Position numbers and translations under genes: made by a program. This document shows, in pieces, positions 38,661 through 58,757 of a DNA stretch of 64,000 nt. The notes beneath the pieces are model-generated. The model saw only the letters and a list, made by a program, of their open reading frames with translations. It made no database searches and was not told the DNA's origin. Numbering within the stretch: position 1 is the first letter of the stretch; each line of letters starts with the position of its first letter. Source of the DNA: Colwellia sp. BRX10-3 (lineage in GTDB: Bacteria > Pseudomonadota > Gammaproteobacteria > Enterobacterales > Alteromonadaceae); contig NZ_JACGWA010000002.1 of assembly GCF_014077505.1 (NCBI RefSeq), positions 62,001 through 126,000 of the forward strand, read 5' to 3'.

Positions 38661-38788
38661 TAGCTGTGTATGTTTATATGAGGGGGCAATGTTAAAGGAG
38701 TGGTATTTTATCTTTTACTTTATTCTTTTTTTAAAATTAAAATCAATTTTTATTATTCACTGATATTTTATACAAAATAAGTCAGCTG

Positions 38789-38828
38789 TAGGGGTTTTCC
38801 CCTGTATGTACTAGGGACTGATCCTGAT
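38789..38828 (+). promoter_or_regulatory. Two-part dyad motif upstream of subtilase 1
   Basis: TAGGGGTTTTCCCCT (38789-38803) and TAGGGACTGATCCTGAT (38812-38828) are two AGG...CCT dyads 23 bp apart. The same pair with identical spacing lies upstream of subtilase 2 (48072-48111). Likely operator for a shared regulator, with the LuxR-type regulator at 47378-48016 the prime candidate. It ends 74 bp before the ATG. Confidence 0.6.
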
Positions 38829-38902: not shown

Positions 38903-41368
38903 ATGAAAACACTAATTAAAAATATGGCATTAACCATGTCAATCGCAGGTATCAGTCTAAACGCAACAGCTGCGGCTGTTATCGGTTCTCAATTAGAACA
39001 ACAATTACAAAATATGACTGCCACTGACAGTGCAATGGTAGTCGTGTCTTATGACCAGCTCGATGCACTAACCACATCGCAGTTACAAAACTTACTAAAC
39101 ATAGGTTTAGCGCAAGGCGTTCAATTCCAATCATTACCTATTATTGGTGTGATGGCAAGTCCGGCTCAAATTAATCAATTAGCTGCTATGCCAGGTGTGC
39201 GTTCAGTTTTTGCAAACCGTACACTTGAGTATTTTAACGCAGAAGCACGTGAAATAACGGGCGTGGAAAAGTTACAATCAGACAGTTTTGCCGCTAATAA
39301 TGGTATGAAATTTACCGGTAAGGGCGTTACGGTTATTGTTAACGATTCAGGCATTGATGCAACGTTAGATGACCTAGAGTACGGCGCTAAAGTGGTTGAA
39401 AACGTACAGGGCGTTACTCATGCACAAGCCATTTCATTAACCGGTGTTGACGGCGTCTGGATTGAAGGCCAACCCAATACTGATTTAAATGTTGGCCACG
39501 GAACACATTGTGCCGGCACAGTAGGCGGTTGGGGCACACACTCTGACGGTAAGTACAAAGGTGCAGCGACAGGTGCAGATATTGTCGGCTACGGTTCTGG
39601 TGCTGGTCTTTCTATCCTAGATGCACTTGGTGGCTATGATTATGCCATTAGTCATATTTGGGATTTTAACTCTCCTATTCGTGTGATGAGTAACTCTTGG
39701 GGCTCAAGTGGAAAATTTGATCCAGCAGGCCCTATTTCATTAGCGTCATACAAAGCTCACAAATTAGGTATGATTTCAGTATTTGCTGCTGGTAACAGTG
39801 GTGCAGGTGAAGATACCCACAACCCTTATGCACAAATCCCATGGGGTATGTCAGTTGGCGCAACCACAAAACAAGGCACTTTAATTGATTTTTCTTCACG
39901 TGGTAAACGTGGCGAACAAGCTGACTTTACAATGCCGGATGGTTCGACCTGGACTTATAAAAACGAAGTAACGATAGTTGCACCTGGTGTTGATATTATT
40001 TCAACCCGTGCTAAAACTAACCTTGCCTCTAACGGTGGTGCTGACGATGTAGGTGTTATCGAAGATGAATACTTACCTTTCTACACTAGGATTTCTGGCA
40101 CCTCGATGGCAACGCCTCATGTAGCGGGTATCATTGCTTTAATGTTAGAAGCTAACCCTGACTTAACGCCTTTACAAATTAAGCAAATCATTCAAGAAAC
40201 CGCGACTAATATGCCGGGTTATGAATCTTGGGAAGTGGGTGCTGGTCATGTCAATGCTTATGCGGCAGTAGCAGGAGCACTAGGTCATGATGAGCAAAAT
40301 AGCGCGACAGTAAATAACTTAAGTGAGTTTAATGCCAACGCTATCCTTACTTCTGGCGGCGAGCCTGAAGCGTTTGAAGTGCTATTTTCTCCTGTTGGTG
40401 AACCTGAAGTGCATACCTTCGATGTTGAAGCTGATGCAGCTTGGATCAGTGCTTCGTCTGAAACCCTTGCCAATCTAGTTAAATTAAAATTAGAAGCGCC
40501 AGACGGGACTGTTTATTTTGGTAACTTAACGACGCCAGTACTGAGCGATACCATGCGAGTTTCTGCCCCTGCACAAGTGGGTCAATGGAAGCTTTCTGCT
40601 TACGGCATAACTTCACTTTCAGGTGTTCAAGCAGATCCAACAGGCACATCAAATGGCCCAGGACTTCCTGAATATGTTAGCGGTGAAATTTCAATCTTGA
40701 ACTCTGGTGGTTATGAAGGTTTAAATGATATTGCTGGCCATCCTGCTGAAAAAGCGATTGAGTTTGCGGTAAGTGAGCGTTTAGTGGATAGCAAAAATGA
40801 CCGTTTTTACCGCCCAGATGCTAACTTAAAACGTCAAGAATTAGCTAAATTCTTAGTAATGGGTTTATCAATCAGACAGCAACGTGACATCTTGAATGAG
40901 CAAAAAACAGCTTTTACTGATGTAAACAATAAGTATGCACCTTTTGTTGATGCAGTGACCACTGTTGGCTCGGCACTTAAAGACAGAGTTCAAAATCAAT
41001 GGCCGGTAATGTTATCAAATGGTGACGAATTCACTCCTCGTAAAAATGTTACTAAACAAGAGCTTGCTTATTCATTAGTGCAAGGGCTAGGACTTGAAAC
41101 ACAAGCATTAAGTTTCTCTGGAGAGTTAACAGTTGATTATAAAGGCGAGCGCATTGCTGTGATGGACTCAAGTTCTGTACCACCTGTCTTAAAAGGTTAT
41201 GTGCAAGCTGCTATCGATATGTCATTAATGGGTGTTCGTTTTGCACTTGAGCAAGGACCTTATGACTTATCACCAACAGTAGTTGCTTACTTTGAGCCAG
41301 CTAATAACATTAAGCGTGGTGACTATGCCGTTATTATTGGCCGAGCGTATGATAGCTACTTACGTTAA
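38903..41368 (+). CDS. Secreted S8 (subtilisin-like) serine peptidase with SLH-like C-terminus, paralogue 1
   Basis: An 821-residue exported protease. A signal peptide (residues ~1-24) is followed by an I9-like propeptide region (~25-115) and the S8 catalytic domain with Asp148 (NDSGID), His199 (GHGTHCAG), the oxyanion Asn in AAGNSG and Ser401 (GTSMATPH). A beta-rich middle region precedes three degenerate S-layer-homology-like repeats (about 610-820): HPAEKAIEFAVSERLVD, AFTDVNNKYAPFVDAV and KGYVQAAIDMSLMGV, each ending in a K/R-Q/G-E/D-x-A-type motif. The start at 38903 gives the signal peptide; 22 codons upstream from 38837 are probably untranslated leader. Paralogue of the gene at 48171. 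Confidence 0.9.
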   Translation: MKTLIKNMALTMSIAGISLNATAAAVIGSQLEQQLQNMTATDSAMVVVSYDQLDALTTSQLQNLLNIGLAQGVQFQSLPIIGVMASPAQINQLAAMPGVRSVFANRTLEYFNAEAREITGVEKLQSDSFAANNGMKFTGKGVTVIVNDSGIDATLDDLEYGAKVVENVQGVTHAQAISLTGVDGVWIEGQPNTDLNVGHGTHCAGTVGGWGTHSDGKYKGAATGADIVGYGSGAGLSILDALGGYDYAISHIWDFNSPIRVMSNSWGSSGKFDPAGPISLASYKAHKLGMISVFAAGNSGAGEDTHNPYAQIPWGMSVGATTKQGTLIDFSSRGKRGEQADFTMPDGSTWTYKNEVTIVAPGVDIISTRAKTNLASNGGADDVGVIEDEYLPFYTRISGTSMATPHVAGIIALMLEANPDLTPLQIKQIIQETATNMPGYESWEVGAGHVNAYAAVAGALGHDEQNSATVNNLSEFNANAILTSGGEPEAFEVLFSPVGEPEVHTFDVEADAAWISASSETLANLVKLKLEAPDGTVYFGNLTTPVLSDTMRVSAPAQVGQWKLSAYGITSLSGVQADPTGTSNGPGLPEYVSGEISILNSGGYEGLNDIAGHPAEKAIEFAVSERLVDSKNDRFYRPDANLKRQELAKFLVMGLSIRQQRDILNEQKTAFTDVNNKYAPFVDAVTTVGSALKDRVQNQWPVMLSNGDEFTPRKNVTKQELAYSLVQGLGLETQALSFSGELTVDYKGERIAVMDSSSVPPVLKGYVQAAIDMSLMGVRFALEQGPYDLSPTVVAYFEPANNIKRGDYAVIIGRAYDSYLR

Positions 41369-41388
41369 TTGTTAGCTTTATGAAGAAG

Positions 41389-41414
41389 AACCAACCTGAT
41401 AGTAGGTTGGTTTT
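41389..41414 (+). terminator. Rho-independent terminator after subtilase 1
   Basis: AACCAACCT and AGGTTGGTT pair around a 6-nt loop, followed by TTTTC. It separates subtilase 1 from the downstream signalling operon. Confidence 0.85.
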
Positions 41415-41530
41415 CTTGCTACTAAATGAGCCTAAATACTTGCTAATTTATTAAATTCAACGTAGGTTCTGTTAGCAGAGTCATAAAACAATCTGAGTTA
41501 ACTAGCAGATTCGTATCCAGAGGAAAAAAG

Positions 41531-42367
41531 ATGTTGAACAAAAAAAATATAACGACTAAATTTTTGGCCACAACTGCCATTTTTTTTAGTACCTTATCTT
41601 TCGCTTCCCAACCATTATCGGTCGACGTGCAGGGTAATAAAGTAGAAGTTATTGTTCATTTACCCGGTGATATTTCTGCAGACCTTAGCTTACAGTTTGA
41701 AAATGCAGTCGGCCTAACTAAAGATAGTTTAGGATTAAGTGCAGAATTAATCGATGTTACCTCATTAGACATTATAGACCGCTTACCTAGTGGGTTAAAT
41801 ATTACCCCCGCAGCGGCCTTTCCAATGATGATCACCATTGAACCTAAAGCGAATACTGGTTTTTCGTTCTCGGGTGTTGCGACAATAGATCTACATACGC
41901 ATAATCTAGAATATACAGCCGGCACGCCTTTCCGTTTCTTTAAAGCACCATTAAACGGGGAGTTTAAAGATATTACCGAGACCTTAGGCTCTGGAAGCTT
42001 GCGTACTCGTGGTTCAACAGGCAAATTTTCTCAATTTATAATTGTGGCTGATTTGCGTGCACCTCTAGTGGTTGTTCAACAAAAATTTAATGATTTACAA
42101 ACCGCGCTAAATGAATTTTCTCCGCAAATAAATGCAGCGGTTTATTCAGCGTTATTACAAGATATTAACGACATTAATCAGTTGATATCAACTCAAGACT
42201 ATAATTTGGCAAGTAATAAGCTTAATGAGTTTAATCGTCGTATTAACGACAACCGTGGTATTAATATTCCAGATGTATGGCGTTCAAGCCGAGATATTCG
42301 TAATATTGCCGGTGAGTTGATGGCATTCTCAAAAACCTTGCGATTTAGTTTGCGTTTAATTAAGTAA
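41531..42367 (+). CDS. Secreted protein of unknown function heading the kinase operon
   Basis: A 278-residue protein with a signal peptide (about residues 1-26, ending LSFAS). The first ~160 residues are beta-rich (SVDVQGNKVEVIVHLPG, FPMMITIEPKAN, GVATIDLHTHNLEYT); the C-terminal third is helical and polar, coiled-coil-like (VVVQQKFNDLQTALNEF...NKLNEFNRRIND). I do not recognise the family. AGAGGAAA precedes the ATG. It is 32 bp upstream of the FHA gene and so is likely co-transcribed; as the only soluble exported product of this operon it is a candidate ligand or substrate of the system. Confidence 0.7.
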   Translation: MLNKKNITTKFLATTAIFFSTLSFASQPLSVDVQGNKVEVIVHLPGDISADLSLQFENAVGLTKDSLGLSAELIDVTSLDIIDRLPSGLNITPAAAFPMMITIEPKANTGFSFSGVATIDLHTHNLEYTAGTPFRFFKAPLNGEFKDITETLGSGSLRTRGSTGKFSQFIIVADLRAPLVVVQQKFNDLQTALNEFSPQINAAVYSALLQDINDINQLISTQDYNLASNKLNEFNRRINDNRGINIPDVWRSSRDIRNIAGELMAFSKTLRFSLRLIK

Positions 42368-42399
42368 CGCAACCATTTTTTTTATGTAGAGGTGTTGTT

Positions 42400-43302
42400 A
42401 TGCCAGCTAGAATTACCGTTTGTTATCCTAACCAACCTGCAGTAGAAAGTTTTCTTTATGAAAACAGTGGTTACCGTTTAGGGCGCTCAAATGAATGTGA
42501 ACTTTTATTAGATCACCCTACGGTTTCTCGCCAACATGCTAAAGTTGCGCATACAAATAAAATTTGGCAACTTAATGATGAGCGCAGTCGCAACGGTACA
42601 AAAGTCAATGGTATTGCCATTACTCAGTCCACTTTAAATACTGATGCCTTAATTTCGATTGGTGAGTTAGACTGCTTATTTGAAACGAAATCATCTGAAC
42701 AGCTTGATGCTATTATTACACATAATCAATGGCGTTTATCCAATAGCCAATCACCAATATCAACCCCTTTAACAGAACACTTACAAGACAATTTATCGGC
42801 ACAATTACAAAATATCATTATGTTAACGGGTACACAGCGTGGCATTATTTTATTGGGTGATACTCTACAAACCTTAAGTGTTAGCATTGCTCATGGCATG
42901 CAATTAGCTGATTTTAAATTAGCTAACTTCGAAGGCAGTGTCGGCGCTATTACTCGCTGCTTTGAGTCCGGGCAAGCGGTTATTGCCATGGATGTTACTC
43001 GCCATGAACTGTTAAGCTCACGTAAGAGTATAGAAACCAAAAAAATATCCGCATTAGCCTGTATCCCCTTGTTCTATGAAGATAAAGTTGTGGGTGTTGT
43101 TTACACTGACAGTAAAATATCTGATAAAGTACTCACTGAATTAGATATCGAAATTTTAAGCACCATGAGCCAGCAAATTCAAGCATCAGTTCAAGCAATA
43201 TTACTGCAACAATCGATTGATTCGTTGCAAAAAATTCTCGATGATGACTCAATACGGATATCAGGTAAAAAAGACGCTAGTTTGCTTAATTTGTGCCATT
43301 AA
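42400..43302 (+). CDS. FHA-GAF domain protein
   Basis: A 300-residue cytoplasmic protein. The N-terminal FHA domain (residues ~5-95) has the phosphothreonine-binding signature GRSNECEL, SRQHAKV and RNGTKVNG. Residues ~125-265 look like a GAF domain (IIMLTGTQRGIILLG, GSVGAITRCFESGQAV, ACIPLFYEDKVVGVVYTDS). The family reads phospho-Thr marks, and the adjacent Ser/Thr kinase is the natural partner (23 bp downstream). The GAF ligand is unknown. Confidence 0.88.
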   Translation: MPARITVCYPNQPAVESFLYENSGYRLGRSNECELLLDHPTVSRQHAKVAHTNKIWQLNDERSRNGTKVNGIAITQSTLNTDALISIGELDCLFETKSSEQLDAIITHNQWRLSNSQSPISTPLTEHLQDNLSAQLQNIIMLTGTQRGIILLGDTLQTLSVSIAHGMQLADFKLANFEGSVGAITRCFESGQAVIAMDVTRHELLSSRKSIETKKISALACIPLFYEDKVVGVVYTDSKISDKVLTELDIEILSTMSQQIQASVQAILLQQSIDSLQKILDDDSIRISGKKDASLLNLCH

Positions 43303-43324
43303 ATTTTATTAATAAATAGGCTGT

Positions 43325-46300
43325 ATGAGCACTCCTGAAAAGCCAAAATTAATTAAGCCTGTTGAAATATCACAACAGACAACGCAAATTATCCAACCTG
43401 ACAATTCACTGGCAATAGGTGAATGTCTTGTTGGTCGTTTTGTGATTAAAAGCCTGCAAGGTAGAGGTCGTTATGGCTGTGTTTATAGCGCGTATGATCA
43501 GCAACTCGATGCTGTTATTGCCATCAAAGTACTTGATAAATCCCTTAGCCAAAATGCAAAAAATTTAGCTGATTTTAAAAATGAATTGTTATTAGTTCGT
43601 CAACTTAGTCACCCCAACATTATTCGTGTCCATGAATATTATCAGCATCAAGATTTACACTTCTTAACCATGGATTGGATAGAAGGGGGGAGCTTAGAAA
43701 AAATTATCACTAGTCAACCTCTGTCTATCAAGCAAGTTCAAAGTTTTATTGAACAATTACTGAGTGGTCTAGCTTTTGCGCAGCAAGCGGGTATAACGCA
43801 TAAAGATATTAAGCCTGAAAATATTATGATAGACACATCTGGTCGGCTCTATATCGCTGACTTTGGCCTTTCGGTGCTGAATAAAGAAAGTGCCGCGGCC
43901 AGTGTGATGGGCACGCCGCACTATGCGCCACCTGAATATCTTCAGTCAGGTAAAATTAATGCCAGTACAGATTTATATGCTGCTGGTATTGTTATATTCC
44001 AACTCTGTTGCCATTGCTTACCGTTTAATGGTGATTCAATAGATGAACTAATAGAAAGCAAGTTACTCAATAAAGCTAAATTTAACCCAAAGCATGCGGA
44101 ACTTAATACTCTAAAATCTTGGTTGTTATCGTTAATTTCAGCTCATAGTGCATCACGCCCAGTAAATATCGCACTGGCAGAACAGCAATACATAGCACTA
44201 ACAACGGACAAAAAAACATTAAGTAAAACCTCAGTATTTTATGGTGTTTTTGCACTTTTTCTGGTTGGGATTTTTATTACGATTTGGATTTATAATCAAC
44301 CAAAAGCAATCAAGTCGAGTGCCAAAAATCACTACGCTGTAGCTATCTTGCCAACGTTGACCAAAGATGAAGAGTTTGATCAAACATTTGCCAATTATTT
44401 AAATTATCAACTAAGCGAGATTTCGAATTTACGGGTAATAGAGCAATCGAGGCTGAAGCAATTATTAGCGCAACTAGGTATAAAATTACCGTTAGATGAC
44501 AACAAAATTGAGCTAATTACTGATCTACTACAAATTGATTTAATGATTAGTCCGCAAATTATTGTGGCCGGTACCCAAGCGAAGGATATACAGTTTGAAC
44601 TAATCTTTGTTGATGGTTTTAAAACCCATCGTGAAACTTTACTGCGGCAAGTGTTTGACGAAAAAAACTGGCAAAGTACTTCGGTTAACTTTGTTGATAA
44701 CTTTATAAAGCGCTTAGCTATAGAAGCGAGTGCCACGCAGACCTTGTCATATGAGCCTAATCCACTGCTTGATTTATTTGCTATTAAAGCTTTTATCGCA
44801 CAAGGGGATTTTGAGAGTGCGCAACTAGCGCTTACCCCAATACTTAGTGATAATTCAGAGTCTGCGCAAACTTGGTTGCAACAAGGTGAACTGAATCTTG
44901 CCCAAAACTTAATTTTAGAAGCAGAGCAAGCTTACGGTAAGGCAGCAGAGTTTAGTACAGTTAATTCATATACTACAAAACTTGCTAGTGCCCGATTGAA
45001 TGATTTAGCAGGCAAAGTTGAGCAAGCACAAACTGACTACTTAGCCTTAGTGAATGCCTTTCCTTATAACACTGAACTTAAAATGATGTTGGCGGAGTTT
45101 TATTTTTTAATTGAACAGCATCAAAAAATGGAATCGCTATTACTGGACGTCGTAAACATTGATGCTAATCATCCTAAAGCTTGGTTTATGTTAGGCAGAG
45201 CCGCCTTTTTACAAGGTGATTTTGAAAAAGCACTGAATGAATATTTTGTTAAAGCATTAGTCACAGCAAAGAAACTAAAAAATCAATATAAAGAAGGTGA
45301 AGCCCTAAATGCTTTTGGTGTGGTGTACGAGCAGTTAGGTGAAACGAAACTAGCCTTTGATTACTACCAAGAAGCGTTAGCAATTAGAAAAGTGACCGGA
45401 GATTTGGCCGGCACTGCAACTACGATGACAAACCTTGCAGCTATGCATTTAGCAATTGGCGAGTATCAAAAAGCTGAGCAGTATTTAAAAGAAAGTTTAG
45501 ACATTTATCCGCAGCTAAACGATCAAAAGGGGCTTGCCAATACCTACAATGAACTTGGCAATTTGGCGGAAGAACAAGCCTTGTACCAAATTGCGTTAGA
45601 AAACTATCGCCATGCCTTAAATATTCGTATCGATTTAGGTAACTTAATGCTACAAGCAGAGAGCATGAACAATATAGGGTATAGCTATTTTATGTTGCTT
45701 GATCCTGAGAATGCATTGGTTTATTGGCGTCAATCAGAGCAGTTATATCAGCAGATCCAATTTCCAATTGGCATTATTCATGTCAGACAAAACTTAGGTC
45801 AATTGGAACTAGCAAAAGGTAATTGGCGTAATGCCTATCATCTTTTTAACAATACATTAGCAGACGCGAATGAACTGAGTAGTTCTGAAGAATCGCTGGT
45901 ATCACACAGTTACCTCACTAAACTGGCATTTTTACAAGGTAACTTTCAATCGAGTATTATCGAGTTGATAGCGCTTTATTCGGAAGCAGAAAAATTGCAT
46001 GATGTTAGAGCTACAGCGCAACTCGGGCTTTGGTTGGCTGATTGGTCTCTGCAATTAGGTGATATTAAACAAGCTGAACAACATCTAGCGAAAATTAGCA
46101 AAATCGTCTCAACTTATGGCAATAAAGAATACAAAACGACCTACCATTTTTTAATTAGTCAGGACCAAAATAATGTCACAAGCACGTCGTTTGGAGCTAA
46201 AGATGTTGTTACTGATCACGCACACCAAACTATTTATATCCGCCAGTTAATAAAGCAAGCGAGAGAGCTTTTACGTGCAGGAAATAAAGACATTAGCGCT

Positions 46301-46669
46301 AATTTGACACTATTGGCTGAAATAGACTTTGGACTCTATCAGTATCAGTATATCGAGTATTTAGAGCTACTAGCTGTGCAACAATATTATTCTCAGGCGT
46401 GGACTGATTTAAAAAGTACTTTGCGCGAAGCAGACCTTTTATTAAGAAAAATGGGCGATTATTGGCGAAGTTTTCAATTTGATCGTTTACGAGCTCAATT
46501 AGCGATCGCAGATAAGCAAGACCCAGAAAAATATCACGATACTGTCCGTAAAAAACTTAAAAATTTGATGACTAATTTACCTACTGAAATGTCGTCAAAC
46601 TTCTTGAAAAAACAAGATTACTTTCAATTAAATGACTCGCTACAGGAATTACTGCGTTATGAGCAATAA
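43325..46669 (+). CDS. Membrane Ser/Thr protein kinase with TolB-N-like and TPR extracytoplasmic region
   Basis: A 1114-residue kinase of the PknB type. Kinase domain about residues 35-290: glycine loop GRGRYGCVY, Lys68 in AIKVL, catalytic loop HKDIKPEN with Asp161, DFG Asp179, APPE. The HRD Arg is Lys, so the site is not of the classical RD type. One membrane span at about 303-323 is followed by a segment resembling TolB-N/CsgG-like domains (YAVAILPTLTKD...LRVIEQSRL) and then some 600 residues of TPR repeats (for example NAFGVVYEQLGETKLAFDYYQEALAIR). By topology the TPRs lie in the periplasm and may sense partner proteins. It overlaps the histidine kinase by 11 bp. Confidence 0.92.
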   Translation: MSTPEKPKLIKPVEISQQTTQIIQPDNSLAIGECLVGRFVIKSLQGRGRYGCVYSAYDQQLDAVIAIKVLDKSLSQNAKNLADFKNELLLVRQLSHPNIIRVHEYYQHQDLHFLTMDWIEGGSLEKIITSQPLSIKQVQSFIEQLLSGLAFAQQAGITHKDIKPENIMIDTSGRLYIADFGLSVLNKESAAASVMGTPHYAPPEYLQSGKINASTDLYAAGIVIFQLCCHCLPFNGDSIDELIESKLLNKAKFNPKHAELNTLKSWLLSLISAHSASRPVNIALAEQQYIALTTDKKTLSKTSVFYGVFALFLVGIFITIWIYNQPKAIKSSAKNHYAVAILPTLTKDEEFDQTFANYLNYQLSEISNLRVIEQSRLKQLLAQLGIKLPLDDNKIELITDLLQIDLMISPQIIVAGTQAKDIQFELIFVDGFKTHRETLLRQVFDEKNWQSTSVNFVDNFIKRLAIEASATQTLSYEPNPLLDLFAIKAFIAQGDFESAQLALTPILSDNSESAQTWLQQGELNLAQNLILEAEQAYGKAAEFSTVNSYTTKLASARLNDLAGKVEQAQTDYLALVNAFPYNTELKMMLAEFYFLIEQHQKMESLLLDVVNIDANHPKAWFMLGRAAFLQGDFEKALNEYFVKALVTAKKLKNQYKEGEALNAFGVVYEQLGETKLAFDYYQEALAIRKVTGDLAGTATTMTNLAAMHLAIGEYQKAEQYLKESLDIYPQLNDQKGLANTYNELGNLAEEQALYQIALENYRHALNIRIDLGNLMLQAESMNNIGYSYFMLLDPENALVYWRQSEQLYQQIQFPIGIIHVRQNLGQLELAKGNWRNAYHLFNNTLADANELSSSEESLVSHSYLTKLAFLQGNFQSSIIELIALYSEAEKLHDVRATAQLGLWLADWSLQLGDIKQAEQHLAKISKIVSTYGNKEYKTTYHFLISQDQNNVTSTSFGAKDVVTDHAHQTIYIRQLIKQARELLRAGNKDISANLTLLAEIDFGLYQYQYIEYLELLAVQQYYSQAWTDLKSTLREADLLLRKMGDYWRSFQFDRLRAQLAIADKQDPEKYHDTVRKKLKNLMTNLPTEMSSNFLKKQDYFQLNDSLQELLRYEQ

Positions 46670-47381
46670 TATGGATATGACTAAGTTGGTGGCACAACTT
46701 AATGAAAAGCAAAAGCAAATATCTCAGCAATTATATATTGGTAACGAGCAAATGCGTGGCTTAGCTAAGCGGGTATGGCGAGTACAAGAAGATGAACGTA
46801 AACATATTGCCCGAGAATTACACGATGGTGTAGGGCAACTTCTAACGGCTTTGATCAATCAATTACAACAAGTACAAAAGGGCGATCCAGCAATAGCATT
46901 AAGTGAAAGTATTGATTTAGCGCGCCAAGCTTTGTCTGATACTCGGGTTATTTCTCGTCTAATGCGACCAAGAATTTTAGACGATCTTGGCCTTATCCCC
47001 GCTTTAGAATGGTTAGTGAGAATAATGGGCGAGCCAGAAGAGGCAGAAATTGAATTTCATCATCAGATAAATACCGAGATAGATAACGATACGCAAACCT
47101 TAGCTTTTCGTGTCATACAAGAAGCTCTAACTAATGCGATTAAACATGCTCAAGCTAAAACTATTACCTTAAATGTAATAGCAACAAGTAAACTGTTAAT
47201 GATCAAAATAGCAGATGATGGTGTTGGTATGCCTCTTGGTACAGAAGATAACCCAGATGGCTTCGGCTTGGGCGCTATGCGAGATAGGGTCAGTGCTTTT
47301 GGTGGCCAGTTAACCATTAATTCATCACCTAACCAAGGTTGCGAAATCAAGGTTTTAGTGACAGGAAGAGAAATGTCATGA
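46659..47381 (+). CDS. Sensorless NarX-type histidine kinase
   Basis: A 240-residue soluble protein with a short coiled-coil N-terminus, a HisKA_3 dimerisation/phosphoacceptor domain with His55 in RELHDGVGQLLTAL, and a HATPase_c domain (EALTNAIKHAQA, DDGVGMP, GFGLGAMRDRV). There is no membrane span and no PAS, GAF or other input domain, so the signal must come from a partner; the overlapping Ser/Thr kinase and FHA protein are the obvious candidates. The ATG at 46659 (AGGA upstream) is preferred over 46632. It overlaps the regulator start by 4 bp. Confidence 0.9.
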   Translation: MSNNMDMTKLVAQLNEKQKQISQQLYIGNEQMRGLAKRVWRVQEDERKHIARELHDGVGQLLTALINQLQQVQKGDPAIALSESIDLARQALSDTRVISRLMRPRILDDLGLIPALEWLVRIMGEPEEAEIEFHHQINTEIDNDTQTLAFRVIQEALTNAIKHAQAKTITLNVIATSKLLMIKIADDGVGMPLGTEDNPDGFGLGAMRDRVSAFGGQLTINSSPNQGCEIKVLVTGREMS

Positions 47382-48016
47382 TCAGCGTACTTATTGCCGA
47401 TGACCACACTATTTTACGCCACGGTCTGGTGAGTTTATTAAGCAAAGATGAAAATATTCGCGTGGTAGCTGAGGCTGCAGATGGCGTGGAGGCGATTAAA
47501 AAAGCACTGGAATTAAAACCAACGGTTATTGTTATTGATATCAGTATGCCTGAGATGAATGGCATGGAAGCAGTTAAACGCTTACACGAACAATTACCTG
47601 AAGCTAAGGTGTTAGTGCTTACTATGCATGAAGAGCAAGAATATGTAATACATATGGTTAGAGCCGGGGCTTCAGGTTATCTATTGAAAGATAGTGCGAG
47701 TGATGAATTAATTGATGCGGTAAAAGCCTTGGCTGAAGGAAAAACCTATTTCAGCCAGTATGCCGCTAGCGTTTTAGCTACTCAATACAATAAACCAGCA
47801 GAAAGTTGGCAAGACCCTTATAAAAACCTGACTAATCGTGAACGTGAAGTGTTTCACTTGATCATTGAAGGTAAAACCACGAAAGAAATCGCTCGATCTT
47901 TAGATATTAGTGTCAAAACCGCGGAAAACCATCGCGGAAAAGTATTAGACAAACTTGATGTCGCTAATGCGGCAGAACTAGTGCGCTATGCCGCTAAACA
48001 CCATCTATTAATGTAA
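47378..48016 (+). CDS. LuxR/NarL-family response regulator
   Basis: A 212-residue regulator with a receiver domain (IADDHTILRHGL, phosphoacceptor Asp54 in VIDISMPEMNG, Lys in LLKDSASDEL) and a C-terminal LuxR HTH (LTNREREVFHLIIEGKTTKEIARSLDISVKTAENHRGKVLDKL). The ATG at 47378 overlaps the histidine-kinase stop (ATGA), so the two form a cognate translationally coupled pair. Subtilase 2 begins 155 bp downstream behind a motif shared with subtilase 1; both are inferred targets. Confidence 0.95.
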   Translation: MISVLIADDHTILRHGLVSLLSKDENIRVVAEAADGVEAIKKALELKPTVIVIDISMPEMNGMEAVKRLHEQLPEAKVLVLTMHEEQEYVIHMVRAGASGYLLKDSASDELIDAVKALAEGKTYFSQYAASVLATQYNKPAESWQDPYKNLTNREREVFHLIIEGKTTKEIARSLDISVKTAENHRGKVLDKLDVANAAELVRYAAKHHLLM

Positions 48017-48071
48017 TTTCAATAAAAAAATTATAGTTAAGCTTTACTGCATTAATTAAATTTTTATCCAT

Positions 48072-48111
48072 CAGGTGTTTTACCCTAATCCTTCTAGGGG
48101 TTTATCCTGAT
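48072..48111 (+). promoter_or_regulatory. Two-part dyad motif upstream of subtilase 2
   Basis: CAGGTGTTTTACCCT (48072-48086) and TAGGGGTTTATCCTGAT (48095-48111) repeat the arrangement found at 38789-38828, again 23 bp apart. Here the inner pair CCCTA-N7-TAGGG is perfect and the outer ATCAGG / CCTGAT is also an inverted pair. It ends 59 bp before the ATG of subtilase 2. Confidence 0.62.
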
Positions 48112-48170
48112 TCTTTAATACCTTGTTGTTTGAGATGCTCGTTGTATCGAAACTACTTAGGTTACTCCCA

Positions 48171-50630
48171 ATGCTTAAAACTAAACTAAAAAATAAATTG
48201 CTAATCGCTGGTTTAATGGGGGCAGGTATACTGTCTTCTAGTCTCTCTGCTAAATCTTTCGGACCTGAATTACAAGGCTTGATGTCAACAGCAGCTGTTC
48301 ATGATGTCTTCGAAGTTATTGTGACATTTGAAGGTGAGGGTGCAATAAATACTGAACGCTTAAATATTATCGAATCTGCTGGTGTAATTGGTGGTGTTAG
48401 CTTCAAGCAATTGCCAATTGTTGGTATTACCGCAACGAAAGCGCAAATCGAACAAATATATACTTCAAATAAAGTGCGTTCTGTTTATTTTAACGCGCCA
48501 CTTTCATTAGAGAATGATGGCGCAACACAAATTACCGGCGTCGACCGTTTACGTGCTGATTCAACAATGAGAAGCCAAGGTACTCCATTTTCTGGTCGCG
48601 GTATCGGTGTTGTTGTTAACGACTCAGGCGTTGATGGCACACACAGCGATATTAAATACCCGAATCACGTTGTACAAAACGTATTAGCGCAAACTAACTT
48701 ACATTCATTATCAGATATTTTACCTATTACTTATCAAGAAGATACCGCCAACACAGATATTGCTGGCGGTCATGGTTCACATGTTGCCGGTATTATTGGC
48801 GGTAATGGCGCTATGTCTACTGGTAAATACCAAGGTGTAGCACCTGGTGCAAAAATTATCGGTTACGGCTCAGGCGCAGGTCTCTTCATTTTAGACACGA
48901 TTGGTGGTTTCGATTATGCCTTAACCCATCAATATGATTACAACATTCGCGTTATCTCAAATTCTTTTGGCAGTACTAGTGACACAGGAACTGATTTTAA
49001 CCCGGATCACCCAACCAACGTTGCCACTAAAACTCTATCAGATAACGGTGTTATTGTAGTGTTCTCTGCGGGTAATTCTGGTAGTGGTGAAGCGACGATT
49101 ACTGGTAACTTTAAAAAAGCACCATGGGTTATTACGGTTGCGGCAGGCGATAAAGAAGGAAAGTTGGCTGACTTTAGTTCACGTGGTGTTAAAGGCAAAG
49201 GTGGCGAAGTGATGGTTGGCGATGAAATGTTTCATTGGGAAGACCGTCCAACCGTTACCGGACCTGGTGTTGATATCATTTCTACACGCGCATCATTATC
49301 AAGCTTGAGCGCGTTAAGTATTGGCGATGACAGTGAAGTAATGGCGCCTAACCATGTGCCTTATTACACGTCTATGAGCGGTACATCGATGTCTGCTCCA
49401 CATGTTGCTGGTATTGTTGCTTTGATGTTAGAAGCTAACCCAAGCTTAACTTGGCGTGAAGTAAAAGCAATTTTACAAGAAACTGCTACTAATATGCCTG
49501 GTCGTGAAACGTGGGAAGCTGGCGCAGGTTATGCAAACGCATATGCTGCAGTTAAATCGGTGGTAGATCAAAGCCTAAACTTTGGTAGCACAACTAAAAT
49601 TGAACGTAATTTTAATGCTAAAGCGTTAACGTCAGTACAAGCAGAATACGCTGAAACTGTTACCTTCAGTCCTGTAGGTGACAGCGAAGGAACTGTTATA
49701 CCAGTGAAAGCTGACGCTTCTATGGTGATGGTACGCGCAAATATTGATGATAATACGGTTGGTTTATCATTAACTAGCCCAAGTGGTAAACGTTACGGTT
49801 CTAGTATCGCCATTCCAGTGTTAGGCCAAAATATTGCAGTAACGGCTCCCGCTGAAGCAGGTAACTGGATATTGAAAGCAAATGGTATTGGTGGTATTTC
49901 TGGAGTAGCGCTTGACCCAGCGGGTGTTACTAACGGCTACGCGGTTCCAGGTGATATTGCAGTATCAATCAAAATTATTAAAACTGACGGTTATACCGGC
50001 CTTGGCGATGTGGAAAACCATCCGGCAAAATCATTTATTGAATATGCGGTAAGTGAAGAACTAGTTGATGCCAATGCAAACGGCTTTCAACCAGATGAAG
50101 TGTTAACTCGCCAAGTGCTAGCTGACTTTTTAACTTTAGGTGCAGGCATTCGTCAATCTAACTTAGCAACAACAAGCGCCTTTAATGATGTTTCTGGTCA
50201 GTATGCTGCAGCAGCAAATGCGGTTAATAATAAAGGTGCGGCTTTACGTAATACTGCGCAAGATCAAGCGCCTGTTATGCAATCTAATGGCAGTAGCTTT
50301 AACTCAGAACAGTCAGTTGACCGTAATCAGTTAGCATACTCTTTAGTGCAATCATTGGCATTACAACCTTTGGCAGAAAGCTTTAGTGGTGAGATCACTG
50401 CGATTTTTCAAGACCAACGCGTAGTACTAGCGGATCAAGCGCAAATTCCTGCTGAGTTAAAAGGTTATGTACAATTGGCATTAGATTTAGGGATATTAAA
50501 TGCGCACTTTGACATTCAACAAGGTCCTTATGATTTAGAGCCAACTATTATTGCTAACTTTAACGGCGACAATGTAGTAACTCGTGCGGATTATGCAGTA
50601 GCAGCAACGCGATTCTTTAACAACTATTAA
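48171..50630 (+). CDS. Secreted S8 (subtilisin-like) serine peptidase with SLH-like C-terminus, paralogue 2
   Basis: An 819-residue exported protease with the same layout as the one at 38903: signal peptide (~1-26), propeptide-like region, S8 domain with Asp151 (NDSGVD), His201 (GGHGSHVAG), Asn in SAGNSG and Ser406 (GTSMSAPH), a beta-rich linker, and three SLH-like repeats (HPAKSFIEYAVSEELVD, AFNDVSGQYAAAANAV, KGYVQLALDLGILNA). Similarity runs over the whole length, so the two arose by duplication. The start at 48171 gives the signal peptide; an in-frame opening at 48123 lies in the leader. A strong terminator follows. Confidence 0.9.
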   Translation: MLKTKLKNKLLIAGLMGAGILSSSLSAKSFGPELQGLMSTAAVHDVFEVIVTFEGEGAINTERLNIIESAGVIGGVSFKQLPIVGITATKAQIEQIYTSNKVRSVYFNAPLSLENDGATQITGVDRLRADSTMRSQGTPFSGRGIGVVVNDSGVDGTHSDIKYPNHVVQNVLAQTNLHSLSDILPITYQEDTANTDIAGGHGSHVAGIIGGNGAMSTGKYQGVAPGAKIIGYGSGAGLFILDTIGGFDYALTHQYDYNIRVISNSFGSTSDTGTDFNPDHPTNVATKTLSDNGVIVVFSAGNSGSGEATITGNFKKAPWVITVAAGDKEGKLADFSSRGVKGKGGEVMVGDEMFHWEDRPTVTGPGVDIISTRASLSSLSALSIGDDSEVMAPNHVPYYTSMSGTSMSAPHVAGIVALMLEANPSLTWREVKAILQETATNMPGRETWEAGAGYANAYAAVKSVVDQSLNFGSTTKIERNFNAKALTSVQAEYAETVTFSPVGDSEGTVIPVKADASMVMVRANIDDNTVGLSLTSPSGKRYGSSIAIPVLGQNIAVTAPAEAGNWILKANGIGGISGVALDPAGVTNGYAVPGDIAVSIKIIKTDGYTGLGDVENHPAKSFIEYAVSEELVDANANGFQPDEVLTRQVLADFLTLGAGIRQSNLATTSAFNDVSGQYAAAANAVNNKGAALRNTAQDQAPVMQSNGSSFNSEQSVDRNQLAYSLVQSLALQPLAESFSGEITAIFQDQRVVLADQAQIPAELKGYVQLALDLGILNAHFDIQQGPYDLEPTIIANFNGDNVVTRADYAVAATRFFNNY

Positions 50631-50792: not shown

Positions 50793-51464
50793 ATGAAATT
50801 TAAATATATCAATCGTTTAGTCATTGGCTCAGTGTTGTCTTTAAGTTGTTTAGTTAGCCCGGCACAGGCTGGCTTGATCACTATTGGCGCGTTAACCAGT
50901 AATAATGACGGTAGTACCAGCGTTATTACCGATACCCTTAATAATCTTGAATGGATGCGATGGAATGAATCAGCTAATTTTAATTATGCTGAAGCTTTAT
51001 TGCAGAACACGTCAGGTTGGACAATAGCTGGTGCAAACCAAGCTAATTTATTCCTCGATGCGTTATATAACGGTATTAGCCATGGTTGTTCTGATAACAT
51101 CGACGACTCTTTATTTTGCGCAGATAGCGGTAGCTTCTCAAGTGAAGAATACACTGCGCTGTTAGGCGACTCATCTACACGTGGCACAAGCAGTATTGAT
51201 GCAGCATGGTTCTATGATGACGAAATAACAGATGGTAAAGCCGGTTATTTAAAGCTAGGGTCAGGAACTAGTAATGAGAAATTTAATACTTATGGCACTA
51301 TTGCTAAAACTGAAGTAGATAGACTTTTGAGTAATGAAACTATTGGCTGGTTAATGTATAGAACAACCACAGTGCCTGAGCCTACCACACTAACTATTTT
51401 TGCATTAGGCATTATCGCTTTAGCGTCACGACGATTTAAGAAGCAAGTGTCACCGCAAGTGTAA
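50793..51464 (+). CDS. PEP-CTERM sorting domain protein
   Basis: A 223-residue exported protein. It has a signal peptide (about residues 1-26, ending AQA), a secreted domain starting LEWMRWNESANFNY, typical of DUF1566-like/PEP-CTERM cargo, and at the C-terminus the PEP-CTERM tripartite signal: VPEP, a hydrophobic helix (TLTIFALGIIALA) and a basic tail (SRRFKKQ). Such tails are processed by exosortase (EpsH-type), usually in exopolysaccharide producers. No exosortase gene is in the window. AAAGG lies 9 bp before the ATG. Confidence 0.88.
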   Translation: MKFKYINRLVIGSVLSLSCLVSPAQAGLITIGALTSNNDGSTSVITDTLNNLEWMRWNESANFNYAEALLQNTSGWTIAGANQANLFLDALYNGISHGCSDNIDDSLFCADSGSFSSEEYTALLGDSSTRGTSSIDAAWFYDDEITDGKAGYLKLGSGTSNEKFNTYGTIAKTEVDRLLSNETIGWLMYRTTTVPEPTTLTIFALGIIALASRRFKKQVSPQV

Positions 51465-53580: not shown

Positions 53581-54996
53581 TTAACGAATAAATATTTTAA
53601 ATAATAGTTGATGAATTTTATTACCAAATGGAGGGAATAATAATGAACCTAAGCTTATTTTTCCTCGTGATAGCACGGACTTTCCATGCGAGAAAGTTTT
53701 AAAACCTTCACTACCGTGGTATTGCCCCATGCCAGAAGCACCAATGCCACCAAAAGGTAAATCATCAATAGCCACATGAAAAGCAGCATCGTTAATGCAA
53801 ACACCACCTGCATGGGTATTTAATAAAACTTGTTGTTGAAATGACTTGTCAAAACTACAAATGTATAAAGCAAGTGGACGAGGCTTACTGTTGATATAAG
53901 CAATCGCTTCGTTAATGTTGTTATAGCCAATAATAGGTAATAATGGGCCAAAAATCTCTTGCTGCATAATGGTCATGTCATCATTAACATTAGTTAGCAG
54001 TGTTAAAGGCATTTTTCTTGAAGCGCTACCATTACTGTCTTTTGATAAAGGCATTATCGTTGCCCCTTGCGCTTTCGCATCGGCTAATAAACTATCAAGA
54101 CGGGCTTTTTGTGCATCATTAATTATGCAGCTGCAGTCATCATTCTCTTCAATATTAGGGTACATGCTTTGATAAGCGGTTTGAAAAGCTTGGGTCAATT
54201 CTTCTACTTTGCTTTGCGGGCAAAAAATATAATCGGGTGCAACACAGGTCTGTCCGGCATTAAGGGTTTTACCCAAAATTAAGCGGCTAACGGCAGTTTT
54301 TATATCTATATCATTGTCAATAATGGTGGGTGATTTACCACCTAACTCTAAAGTAACAGGCACTAAATTTTCAGCCGCGGCTTTCATTACGAGTCTGCCT
54401 ACGCCGGTAGAGCCAGTAAAAAATAAGTGATCAAAAGTTAGGCCTGAAAATGCTGCTGCCATGTCAGACTCACCGCAAATAATAGCCACTTTATTACGAG
54501 GAAAAATATCTGCAATTAACTTGGCTAATAGCGTGTTGGTATTAGGCGTGTACTCACTCATTTTTATCATCGCAGTATTACCTGCCGCTAATGCCGTAGT
54601 TAATGGTCCCAAAGTTAGAAAAACCGGATAATTCCACGGCGCAATAATGCCGATAACACCTTTAGGTTGAAAAACTACCTCACCCTTTGCCGGTTGAAAT
54701 AAAATCCCGATATGTTTCTTTTCAGGTTTCATCCATTTTTTCAGTTTTTTTATCGCATAGTTTATGCCCATGACGGTGGTGAGAATATCTCCTATTCTAG
54801 AGTCGGCGGCACTGCGATGGCCAAAATCTTGGCTCATGGCATCAATAAAAGCTTCTTGGTTATCAATAATAATGGCTTTTAACTTTACTAAGTCGCTAAT
54901 GCGCTCTTGATAGCTAGGATAAGTATTACTCGCAAAATATTCTTTTTGTTGTAAAAAAGTATCAGTTAGTGCTGTTTTTGTTGTTATTTCTTTCAT
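53581..54996 (-). CDS. Coniferyl-aldehyde-dehydrogenase-type aldehyde dehydrogenase
   Basis: NAD(P)-dependent oxidation of an aldehyde to its acid. The 471-residue protein has the Rossmann motif FTGSTGVGR, catalytic Glu in LELGGKSP and nucleophilic Cys in NAGQTCVAPDY. The family (class 3-like, coniferyl aldehyde dehydrogenase/CalB and long-chain fatty aldehyde dehydrogenases) tends to use bulky or hydrophobic aldehydes. It has a hydrophobic C-terminus (LGSLLFPPFGNKIHQLLFKIF) that may touch the membrane. Its ATG overlaps the permease stop by 1 bp (TAATG), so translation is coupled. Confidence 0.92.
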   Translation of the reverse strand: MKEITTKTALTDTFLQQKEYFASNTYPSYQERISDLVKLKAIIIDNQEAFIDAMSQDFGHRSAADSRIGDILTTVMGINYAIKKLKKWMKPEKKHIGILFQPAKGEVVFQPKGVIGIIAPWNYPVFLTLGPLTTALAAGNTAMIKMSEYTPNTNTLLAKLIADIFPRNKVAIICGESDMAAAFSGLTFDHLFFTGSTGVGRLVMKAAAENLVPVTLELGGKSPTIIDNDIDIKTAVSRLILGKTLNAGQTCVAPDYIFCPQSKVEELTQAFQTAYQSMYPNIEENDDCSCIINDAQKARLDSLLADAKAQGATIMPLSKDSNGSASRKMPLTLLTNVNDDMTIMQQEIFGPLLPIIGYNNINEAIAYINSKPRPLALYICSFDKSFQQQVLLNTHAGGVCINDAAFHVAIDDLPFGGIGASGMGQYHGSEGFKTFSHGKSVLSRGKISLGSLLFPPFGNKIHQLLFKIFIR

Positions 54997-57344
54997 TACT
55001 TTTTATCCTTTTTAGAACCTATTTTGAGTAACCATGCAATAGCTGGAATAAGTGTTAGCGCACCTAACATGTTAAAAATAAACATGAAAGTGAGTAATAT
55101 ACCCATGTCAGCTTGAAATTTGATTGGTGAAAACACCCAGGTAGCTACACCAATAGCTAAGGTTATACCGGTAAAAGCAACGGCTTTACCTGTTTGATTT
55201 AAAGCGTAGCGATATGTCATGTATAACGACTTGCCTTGGGTGAGGGCCTCTTTAACTTTACTGAAAATGTAAATACCGTAATCAACACCAATACCTACAC
55301 CTAAAGCAATTACGGGTAGGGTGGCGACTTTTACGCCGATACCTAAAATACCCATTAAACCTTGGCTCATAATACTGGTTAAAATTAATGGTGTGATGAT
55401 ACAAATAACAATGCGACCACTTCTAAAAGTGATTAAACAAATAATAATAACAATGGAATATACCCAAACTAGCATTTCAGTTTGTGCGTCTTCAATCACC
55501 ATATTAGTGGCAGACTCTATACCTGCATTACCTGCAGCCATCAGAAATTCTATACCATCGACTGGGTTTTCAGCTTTAAATTCTTCTACTGCTTTGACAA
55601 CATTATCAAGAGTTTGTGCTTTATGATCATTGAGGAAGACCAACACTGGCACCATTGAGCAATCTTTGTTCATTAAGCCTTGCGGTGTTTTTGACAATGA
55701 AGCGTTAGTCATTAATTGGTTACGGTTTAAGCCATACCATTTTAGTGAACCTTCATTCATGCCAAATAGCCCAAACTTTGAAACATCAGCAACAGACTTA
55801 ACCGCTTGAACACCTGCAACGTTGCGTAAATGCCATTGAAATTGATCAACCCACACCAGATTTTGATATTGAGCACATTGCTCAACGTCAGTTTTTACCA
55901 TAATGACAAATAAGTCAGTACTGGTACTGTAATTATCAACAATATAGGCGTTGTCTAAGTTGTAGCGAGAATCAGGTCTTAGCTCGGGTGCACCGGCGTC
56001 TAAATCGCCAATTTGCATGGCTTGAGAAAAGTAAATCCCTAAGCCAAAAAGGATTATACCAACCGCTATCGCAATTTTTGCTAGTGGTGGTTTGGCAAAG
56101 TTTTTAAACAAACGTTCAACAATACCTGTTTTATGAGCAGATTTTTGTGCGTATTTTAAACCGGCAGGTGAAACACCGATGTAACTCATGAGAATAGGTA
56201 GCGCAATTAAGTTGGTAACAATAATAATAGCAACACCAATACTAGCGGCTATGGCTAATTCTCGGATCACTTCAATATCAATTACCATTAAAGTAGTAAA
56301 ACCGATAGCGTCACTAACCAAAGCGGTAATGCCAGCAATATAGAGTGAGCGAAAAGCAAGCTTGGCAGAATCAATCTTATTAGCGCCAGTTACGCTATGG
56401 TGAATAATTGAATTGATAATTTGTACGCCATGGCTAACACCAATAGCAAAGACTAAAAAGGGCACCAGCATTGAATATGGATTAATGCCAAAACCGAGCA
56501 AATTTAAGATGCCGAGTTGACAGCATACGGCAAAAATTGAGAAAACTAATACCGAAACCGTACTGCGTATACAGCGTGAATAAAACCATAATAATACAAA
56601 GGTAATAACTACGGCTAAAACGAAGAATGCAACAACTTGTAAAGCACCATCGATTAAATCACCCACCACTTTTGCAAAACCAACAATACGAATAGTGACA
56701 GTATCGCTACTGTATTTGTCGCGTATTTTATCTTCTAAAATTGATGATAGCTCCCGATAATCAAGCGGCAAGCCTGTTTCAGGATTAATGTCTTGTAAGG
56801 GGGCTAAAATAATTGCTGATTGGAAATTATTAGCAACCAGCACACCTATTTGCCCTGATTTAAAAATATTAGATTTAACGCGTTCAATCATCTCGTCAGA
56901 GCCGTCGTAACCGTCAGGTATAACAGCACCGCCTACAAAGCCTTCTTCGGTAACTTCTTGCCAGCGAACATTAGGTGTCCATAATGATTTAAGGCCGTCA
57001 CGACTTACGCCAGGAATATAGAAAACTTCGTCGGTGACTTGCTTTAAAGTTTGTTGAAAGTCGGCATTGAAAATATTACCTTGTTTAGTTTCAACCACAA
57101 TACGAACAACATTACCTAAATCAGCGAGTTCTTTTCTGTAGGTTAAAAAATTATTGACGAACGGATGGTCGCCGGGGATCATTTTAGTAAAGCTAGCTTC
57201 AGGTTTAACTTTAACGGCTTGTATGGTTAACAAAGCGATACAAACGACAACTATCGCCATCACTAATGCACGATGACCAAAAACAAAGTTCTCTATTAGC
57301 TGCTCTAATTTGGTCGGTGAATGAACGGTTTTATTCTCTGACAT
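54996..57344 (-). CDS. MMPL/RND-superfamily permease
   Basis: A 782-residue inner-membrane protein with the RND layout: one N-terminal span (~30-50), a large periplasmic loop, five spans (~235-395), a sixth before a second periplasmic loop (~425-445) and five C-terminal spans (~625-775). GVGIGVDYGIYIFSKVKEAL is the conserved TM10-like segment. It belongs to the MMPL/HpnN-like group that moves lipids rather than drugs; no MFP or TolC-type partner is present. It lies 10 bp downstream of the YCF48-like gene. Substrate unknown; locus content points to a hydrophobic compound. Confidence 0.9.
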   Translation of the reverse strand: MSENKTVHSPTKLEQLIENFVFGHRALVMAIVVVCIALLTIQAVKVKPEASFTKMIPGDHPFVNNFLTYRKELADLGNVVRIVVETKQGNIFNADFQQTLKQVTDEVFYIPGVSRDGLKSLWTPNVRWQEVTEEGFVGGAVIPDGYDGSDEMIERVKSNIFKSGQIGVLVANNFQSAIILAPLQDINPETGLPLDYRELSSILEDKIRDKYSSDTVTIRIVGFAKVVGDLIDGALQVVAFFVLAVVITFVLLWFYSRCIRSTVSVLVFSIFAVCCQLGILNLLGFGINPYSMLVPFLVFAIGVSHGVQIINSIIHHSVTGANKIDSAKLAFRSLYIAGITALVSDAIGFTTLMVIDIEVIRELAIAASIGVAIIIVTNLIALPILMSYIGVSPAGLKYAQKSAHKTGIVERLFKNFAKPPLAKIAIAVGIILFGLGIYFSQAMQIGDLDAGAPELRPDSRYNLDNAYIVDNYSTSTDLFVIMVKTDVEQCAQYQNLVWVDQFQWHLRNVAGVQAVKSVADVSKFGLFGMNEGSLKWYGLNRNQLMTNASLSKTPQGLMNKDCSMVPVLVFLNDHKAQTLDNVVKAVEEFKAENPVDGIEFLMAAGNAGIESATNMVIEDAQTEMLVWVYSIVIIICLITFRSGRIVICIITPLILTSIMSQGLMGILGIGVKVATLPVIALGVGIGVDYGIYIFSKVKEALTQGKSLYMTYRYALNQTGKAVAFTGITLAIGVATWVFSPIKFQADMGILLTFMFIFNMLGALTLIPAIAWLLKIGSKKDKK

Positions 57345-57354
57345 AAGCTTGCCC

Positions 57355-58488: not shown

Positions 58489-58757
58489 AAAGATCCTAAT
58501 AAGTTATATAAGTCTACTTACTAGTATTGATGAAAAAAAAATAATTGAGAGGTGTTAAACGTGCCAAATGATTATCTTTGCGACACAGAGTGTTTTTAAT
58601 GAGTTTTTTTTAAGCAAAAACAGCCATAAAGCATGTTCTTAATATTAATTTAAATACATCATCTTCAAGGGTTTAAATGATTCTAAGCGCTAAATAGTTA
58701 AGATGAATTATCAATTTTTTATGCTTTAGACCAGAGCAGAATGATTGATTGTTTATT

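Follow-up and report, generated by a model that had tools for sequence, protein, structure and literature searches.

DegU of Bacillus subtilis controls subtilisin, and the DegS/DegU two-component system, with its input from Hanks-type kinases, appears by analogy to be the closest known system to the locus analysed here. This locus lies in a window of 64,000 nucleotides (nt) of Colwellia sp. BRX10-3 (the whole stretch analysed; contig NZ_JACGWA010000002.1, positions 62,001 to 126,000) and comprises, in order, subtilase 1, a DUF6689 protein, an FHA-GAF protein, a Ser/Thr kinase, a HisKA_3 histidine kinase, a NarL/LuxR-type response regulator and subtilase 2. In the DegS/DegU system, Ser/Thr kinases are described as phosphorylating the histidine kinase on its input domain and raising phosphotransfer (PMC3033389), and phosphorylated DegU as regulating more than 120 genes (PMC2245950). 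Both systems pair a cytosolic sensor kinase with its regulator. The Ser/Thr kinases acting on DegS/DegU serve the whole cell, whereas here the Ser/Thr kinase, the FHA-GAF protein and DUF6689 share an operon with the two-component pair, and the genes preceded by the DNA box described below are a few subtilases. The likeness would lie in how the systems work; we claim no orthology with DegS/DegU.

Several other systems resemble parts of the locus. The kinases of NarX/NarL, UhpB/UhpA, LiaS and MctS/MctR, all of the NarL family, have membrane sensor parts. Like them, the present pair combines a HisKA_3 kinase with a REC-GerE regulator, and its best NCBIfam profiles are UhpB and MctR, each below cut-off; unlike them, its kinase lacks a membrane sensor part. 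FhaB and OdhI/GarA are FHA proteins that read Ser/Thr-kinase phosphothreonines. The FHA protein here likewise has phosphate-binding residues, adjoins a transmembrane Ser/Thr kinase and gives sub-threshold NCBIfam matches to FhaB and OdhI, but its FHA domain is joined to GAF, and its gene shares an operon with a two-component pair. For Myxococcus EspA/EspB with PktA5, Ser/Thr kinases are thought to act within a complex that possibly interacts with a histidine kinase; EspA differs in being a hybrid kinase, with MrpC turnover as output (PMC4320627). The FHA region of the FHA-GAF protein (P0002) matches the EspA NCBIfam profile and, judging from this match, an FHA would be part of EspA itself, unlike the separate FHA-GAF protein here. 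In NarS-PknL, CroS-IreK and AlgR-Stk1, a Ser/Thr kinase alters the activity of a histidine kinase or regulator, and contacts of this sort are presented in the same source mostly as cross-talk of separately encoded systems (PMC12189002), whereas the parts described here stand in one conserved operon. We found no description of such a gene set in the open-access literature, in line with a first-pass annotation of this DNA, which knew of no such described system, although DegS/DegU with its Ser/Thr-kinase input is a precedent for the kind.

Our best explanation of the whole, to which we assign a rough probability of 0.62, is that the locus forms a dedicated envelope-to-gene signalling module that would activate a small regulon of secreted subtilases.

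A conserved signalling operon linked to subtilases

All seven reading frames are open and lie on the same strand (+). Pfam matches assign them to S8 plus SLH (the two subtilases, E = 6.5e-42 and 2.6e-44), DUF6689 (PF20396, E = 1.9e-108), FHA plus GAF, Pkinase plus TPR, HisKA_3 plus HATPase_c, and Response_reg plus GerE. This bears out the genes, order and families given by the first-pass annotation, with one amendment: its 'secreted unknown protein' does have a signal-peptide-like start, but belongs to a named Pfam family of unknown function.

Scanning named genomes for DUF6689 yielded 60 loci, from Colwellia, Cognaticolwellia, Pseudoalteromonas, Kangiella, Pleionea, Alteromonas, Planctobacterium, Pseudidiomarina, Aliidiomarina, Lysobacter, Luteimonas, Arenimonas, Rhodanobacter, Silanimonas, Vulcaniibacterium, a Xanthomonas sp. 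and metagenome-assembled genomes. By identity of the DUF6689 protein, the nearest named relatives are Colwellia sp. C1TZA3 (90%) and Cognaticolwellia sediminilitoris (86%). The core of DUF6689, FHA-GAF protein, Ser/Thr kinase, histidine kinase and regulator keeps its order on a single strand in 56 of the 60 loci, and the remaining four run into a contig end; the signalling genes had been annotated as one unit, and they behave as one. An S8 gene lies within the stretch at 55 loci, all but L050, L080, L084, L090 and L094.

Because the loci were collected through DUF6689, the reverse test, from S8 gene to module, matters. A subtilase-2-like S8 protein (E 1e-60) occurs in 15 of 295 genomes of the order, and DUF6689 is present in all 15; only G224 has DUF6689 without such an S8. 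DUF6689 itself scores above cut-off in 16 of the 295 genomes and in 3 of 369 genomes of a class sample, in which the S8 occurs in 4. A seventeenth genome of the order (G270) has a weak DUF6689 match with a stop, and the other module genes are not at its locus. Co-conservation of the signalling operon with the subtilases, on which the first-pass annotation had staked its proposal, is thus what we found. A chance neighbourhood is ruled out by the conserved order and by the co-occurrence of module and S8 gene.

In the tree, subtilases 1 and 2 separate into two clades with support of 1.0 and 0.999, and the Lysobacteraceae subtilases are sister to subtilase 2 proper within the second. The pattern is one of REARRANGEMENT without separation: around a constant core, the second-clade subtilases take four positions. 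They follow the core on its own strand in Colwellia, Pseudoalteromonas and Kangiella and in convergent orientation in Alteromonas; in Pseudidiomarina (L055) they precede it as a tandem with subtilase 1, and in Lysobacteraceae they lie upstream of DUF6689 and point away from it. Since adjacency is kept despite rearrangement, this suggests that linkage of subtilases and core may be under selection. Modules without such a subtilase in their own genome are L050, L080, L084, L094 and L184. Aliidiomarina indica has two module copies, one complete with both subtilases (L180) and one without a subtilase but with a box-like site ahead of DUF6689 (L090).

A palindromic box upstream of the subtilases

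Both subtilases of the window are preceded by a palindromic box, TAGGGG-W4-CCCY (Table 1). The exact form TAGGGGNTTTCCC occurs once in the 3.87-Mb genome, as the subtilase 1 box. We scored boxes as the number of matches, out of 14, to CTAGGGG-N(3-5)-CCCCTAG within 250 nt. Among loci L036 to L095, a score of at least 11/14 was found before 59 of 94 S8 genes versus 0.87% of 1500 other windows from the same loci, and one of at least 10/14 before 86 of 94 versus 8.9% of 1500 other 250-nt windows.

The exact box was also rare away from subtilases. Across 15 of the 16 DUF6689-positive genomes (all except G078), TAGGGGNTTTCCC has 24 copies, at least one in 12 of the 15, against three for a reversed-pattern control. 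For 22 copies an S8 start follows at 73-116 nt, another is the box of subtilase 1 in the window and the last lies elsewhere (G235); the exact matches that G235 and G678 have away from the cluster resembled background. The form of the box in Alteromonas, sought in 12 of 13 genomes (all except that of L094, which has no S8), gave 29 copies, 21 before S8 genes, seven before a PEP-CTERM-like gene and one elsewhere (control, 2), and the Lysobacteraceae form gave nine copies in 12 genomes, each followed by an S8 start at 116-212 nt (control, 0). At 7 of the 12 Alteromonas loci, the boxed PEP-CTERM-like gene is a small one adjoining subtilase 2. It differs from the PEP-CTERM protein gene that directly follows subtilase 2 in the window (50793-51464, +), where no box was seen in the intervening 162 nt.

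A positional signal accompanies the box. In 53 non-redundant boxes, G, A and T are enriched at 38, 41 and 45 nt after the box start (0.67, 0.51 and 0.54 bits), compared with a maximum of 0.38 bits at any position in 2000 random rotations, a signature that reads as an extended -10 element (TGn-TAnnnT). With the last base of this element placed at -7, the box centre falls at about -43.5 relative to the transcription start that this element implies. Activators touching RNA polymerase from above the -35 region are located there, and the position makes activation the most likely role of the box.

Control is probably exerted in trans as well, because two unlinked subtilases are boxed. The genome has 11 S8 genes (12 domain matches, two in one frame), and a position weight matrix (PWM) built from the boxes of other genomes, with a background maximum of 9.2 in 3000 windows, found boxes at four of them: subtilases 1 and 2 (24.2 and 19.6), a third subtilase at C50:929588-930484 (16.4; 78 nt before the ATG, with the bases at +38, +41 and +45 kept) and a fourth at C41:114771-115583 (-) (L226; 18.9; 125 nt upstream of the first ATG). 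At the likely starts of the remaining seven genes the score is negative. The fourth boxed subtilase belongs to another subfamily and has an open frame of 436 amino acids with a propeptide-like start. Unlinked subtilases of the third type are boxed in all four genomes examined for them (G000, the present genome; G031; Pleionea; Pseudidiomarina), with PWM scores of 16.4-19.1 and box scores of 10-11 at 78-93 nt upstream; in Kangiella the third-type subtilase lies inside the cluster and is boxed. These unlinked boxes overturn a 'cluster only' reading that a listing of sites with at least 11/14 matches had given. The first-pass annotation had called the module self-contained and proposed that it controls the flanking proteases: the linkage with the flanking subtilases holds and the shared box, at a predicted activator's position, supports their control, but the two unlinked subtilases of the same genome also carry it.

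Predicted features of the module proteins

The Ser/Thr kinase appears catalytically intact: K68, E87, D161, N166 and D179 (catalytic Lys, Glu, HxD Asp, Asn and DFG Asp) are invariant among 65 aligned sequences. Its structural model (mean predicted local distance difference test (pLDDT) 86.2, predicted template-modelling (TM) score (pTM) 0.66) places a helix at residues 307-323, within the hydrophobic segment, followed by an alpha/beta domain and a long TPR superhelix, in agreement with the TPR-bearing transmembrane kinase of the first-pass annotation. Among the best 50 Foldseek matches listed for the model, only the kinase domain was matched and nothing was found for the TPR part. The N-terminal 25 residues are predicted to be disordered (pLDDT < 50 at residues 6-25). 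This tail carries the motif T[QEG]x[ILVY] in 44 of 58 unique kinase tails, versus a mean of 11.7% and a maximum of 31% in 1000 shuffles, mostly 16-17 residues ahead of the kinase domain; the version with Ser for Thr is close to background (17% versus 10%).

The FHA domain has the residues expected of a phosphothreonine reader, judged from the alignment: GR, SRxH and an Asn at the binding face. Across the 65 sequences, G28, R29, S43, R44 and H46 are each conserved in 90% or more, and the Asn is present in the window protein and substituted in L033 and L034. The histidine kinase, described as sensorless by the first-pass annotation, has no transmembrane-like segment in any of the 56 loci (of 60) that bear one (best 19-residue hydropathy ≤1.41) and only about 45 residues ahead of the H-box; a partner would therefore be needed. 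Its H55, N159, D186, G188, G190 and G203 (phospho-acceptor His and ATPase boxes) are invariant among 61 aligned sequences, as are D54 (phospho-acceptor Asp) and K104 of the regulator (REC PF00072, GerE PF00196), also among 61.

DUF6689 matches its profile with 362.3 bits (curated cut-off 27), and its F166-S167 is invariant, a pair that raised the idea of autoproteolysis, which occurs in some ZU5 proteins. The model (pLDDT 91.6, pTM 0.85) has the look of a beta sandwich, which is consistent with weak Foldseek matches to ankyrin ZU5 domains (E 0.012-0.027, probability 0.89-0.93, TM score 0.28-0.30). The top Foldseek match, a GH92 mannosidase chain, was not useful (TM score 0.29, root-mean-square deviation 17). 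In the subtilases (PF00082), the NDSG, GHG[TS]H and GTSM motifs (Asp, His and Ser) were identified by eye.

Proposed mechanism and alternatives

In the mechanism that we propose, the membrane Ser/Thr kinase may sense a cue in the envelope or outside the cell through its alpha/beta and TPR part, perhaps with a DUF6689 partner beyond the membrane; we give this step even odds, and the partnership with the outer part of the kinase is a guess made because of the gene order. The kinase might then phosphorylate the Thr of its own tail, on which the FHA-GAF protein would dock, and the chances for and against this appear balanced. Whether the adaptor would go on to switch on the soluble histidine kinase could fall either way. 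From knowledge of the family, the histidine kinase very probably phosphorylates the NarL-type regulator, which in turn probably binds TAGGGG-W4-CCCY about 43 to 44 nt before the transcription start and recruits RNA polymerase to the extended -10 promoter. Its targets in this genome would be the two flanking and the two unlinked subtilases. The box, its spacing and the set of boxed genes were read from the sequence, and we infer their link to the regulator. Docking of the FHA-GAF protein on a phosphorylated kinase tail, passing the state to the histidine kinase, would be the simplest reading of the co-conservation, the kept phosphothreonine-binding residues and the Thr motif in the tail. The stricter version, a hard-wired relay in which the phosphorylated tail recruits the FHA-GAF protein as obligate activator of the histidine kinase, with DUF6689 as co-sensor beyond the membrane and the whole serving only a subtilase regulon in cis and in trans, is more tentative, and we rate it somewhat below even odds.

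Several observations weigh against the proposed module. The search patterns were derived from the sites themselves, and therefore only the scarcity of matches elsewhere is informative. One-mismatch scans were near background outside known targets (7 versus 5 in the control for G000, 8 versus 3 for G161 and 8 versus 9 for G184), and a looser scan of the genome itself gave 17 matches versus 6, just four of which precede S8 genes; most of the rest fall within coding frames, including a third exact match at C46:32491. A pattern allowing up to three mismatches finds the two window sites only, missing the unlinked targets because it includes extra bases common to the two window promoters. No box was seen for the core operon of the window. 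Box-like sites do occur 112-181 nt before DUF6689 at three Aliidiomarina loci (scores 11, 11 and 10) and about 440 nt before DUF6689 in Pleionea. The conserved DNA-binding residues of the regulator are generic LuxR-family ones. The tail motif was picked after the sequences had been seen and is absent from 14 of the 58 tails, and related species inflate the counts. The co-occurring genomes of the order represent five genera, with 11 of 16 from one genus, and therefore few independent events. In the class sample, G467 and G319 (2 of 369) have the S8 without a DUF6689 match, and G658 has the five-gene module without such an S8 at E 1e-60; for modules L050, L080, L084 and L094, none was found anywhere in the genome at E 1e-40. 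The S8 gene of module-less G467 (about 90% complete; C368:26477-28870, subtilase-2-like) has a box-like site scoring 14.8, that of module-less G319 has no box, and the module of G467 has perhaps diverged or is missing.

The uncertain contact within the relay leaves room for a different wiring, in which the two-component pair controls the subtilases while the Ser/Thr kinase and FHA protein, although co-transcribed, act on another target and the histidine kinase takes its input from elsewhere. No evidence of FHA-histidine kinase contact was found in the sequence, a soluble histidine kinase such as DegS can read several metabolic inputs (PMC3033389), and Ser/Thr kinases are often described as multi-target (PMC12189002). 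We nevertheless consider this wiring unlikely, given that the five-gene order is unbroken wherever no contig end intervenes (56 loci), the five loci without a nearby subtilase among them. A regulator encoded elsewhere could instead bind the box, leaving the module as a mere neighbour of the subtilases. Binding by the module's own regulator is a prediction, and the box-like site of G467, which has no DUF6689 match, would suit this idea; it appears very unlikely, however, with exact boxes nearly absent beyond the cluster, box and module co-occurring across several families, and box-like sites before DUF6689 in the three Aliidiomarina loci and Pleionea.

The subtilases might also act upstream, cutting DUF6689 or the outer part of the kinase to start or stop the signal in a feedback loop that would be compatible with a dedicated signalling module. 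The proteases, DUF6689 and the TPR part of the kinase are all predicted to lie beyond the inner membrane and the genes remain linked through rearrangements, but modules in genomes without such subtilases make feedback a rather unlikely element. Scarcely credible is an anti-phage or conflict system: PADLOC matched the kinase and subtilase domains and, weakly, the regulator, but these are single generic domains, with no match for the FHA protein, histidine kinase or DUF6689, and the products of the boxed genes are proteases that begin with signal-peptide-like sequences. No catalogued defence gene set was matched, and we rejected this candidate.

Layout of the locus

The features are listed in Table 1. 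The starts at 38903 and 48171 were preferred because each comes after a box and a -10 element, and those at 46659 and 47378 because they result in overlaps typical of a tight operon. With the latter two starts, the kinase and histidine kinase genes overlap by 11 nt and the histidine kinase and regulator genes by 4 nt; gaps measure 162 nt (subtilase 1 to DUF6689), 32 nt (DUF6689 to FHA-GAF), 22 nt (FHA-GAF to kinase) and 154 nt (regulator to subtilase 2).

Table 1. Features of the locus, with positions counted from the first nucleotide of the window
Feature	Position	Strand	Basis or remark
Box before subtilase 1, GTAGGGGTTTTCCCCTGT	38788..38805	+	about 114-115 nt ahead of ATG 38903; PWM 24.2
Extended -10-like element, subtilase 1, TG-A-TAGTAA	38825..38833	+	conserved distance from box; last base A, usually T
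Subtilase 1: signal-peptide-like start, S8 peptidase, C-terminal SLH	38903..41368	+	Pfam; subtilase 1 clade in tree
Weak terminator-like inverted repeat between subtilase 1 and core operon	41389..41412	.	minus-strand listing; 13 such sites versus 9.5 expected (shuffles)
DUF6689 protein: signal-peptide-like start; modelled beta sandwich and helical C-terminal part	41531..42367	+	Pfam, model
FHA-GAF protein, putative phosphothreonine adaptor	42400..43302	+	Pfam, alignment
Membrane Ser/Thr kinase: kinase domain, transmembrane segment, alpha/beta domain and TPR superhelix on far side	43325..46669	+	Pfam, alignment, hydropathy, model
Thr motif T20-Q-I-I in disordered kinase tail, candidate FHA docking site	43382..43393	+	motif count, model
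Sensorless soluble HisKA_3 histidine kinase	46659..47381	+	Pfam, NCBIfam, alignment, hydropathy
NarL/LuxR-type response regulator	47378..48016	+	Pfam, NCBIfam, alignment
Box before subtilase 2, CTAGGGGTTTATCCTGAT	48094..48111	+	77 nt ahead of ATG 48171; PWM 19.6; exact pattern match
Extended -10-like element, subtilase 2, TG-A-GATGCT	48131..48139	+	conserved distance from box
Subtilase 2: signal-peptide-like start, S8 peptidase, C-terminal SLH	48171..50630	+	Pfam; subtilase 2 clade in tree

The cluster is surrounded by ordinary chromosomal genes, as judged from a BarA-type hybrid kinase (cache, HAMP, HisKA, REC, Hpt) and a RelA/SpoT gene upstream (23502-29985). Downstream, genes for an aldehyde dehydrogenase, an MMPL transporter, a YCF48-like protein, an AraC-type regulator and a DUF1302 protein lie in a row at 53581-61788 and may form a separate catabolic cluster.

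Discussion

What would be new in this system is a fixed operon with an FHA-GAF adaptor and DUF6689, together with a narrow subtilase regulon. Across several bacterial families, a single operon retains kinases of both types together with an FHA adaptor and a protein family without assigned function, and the predicted output can be read as a DNA box plus a few secreted proteases. The system would thereby permit a direct test of whether a His-Asp pathway can take its main input from Ser/Thr phosphorylation. It would also give DUF6689 a first role, and it predicts control of extracellular proteolysis in several marine and soil bacteria.

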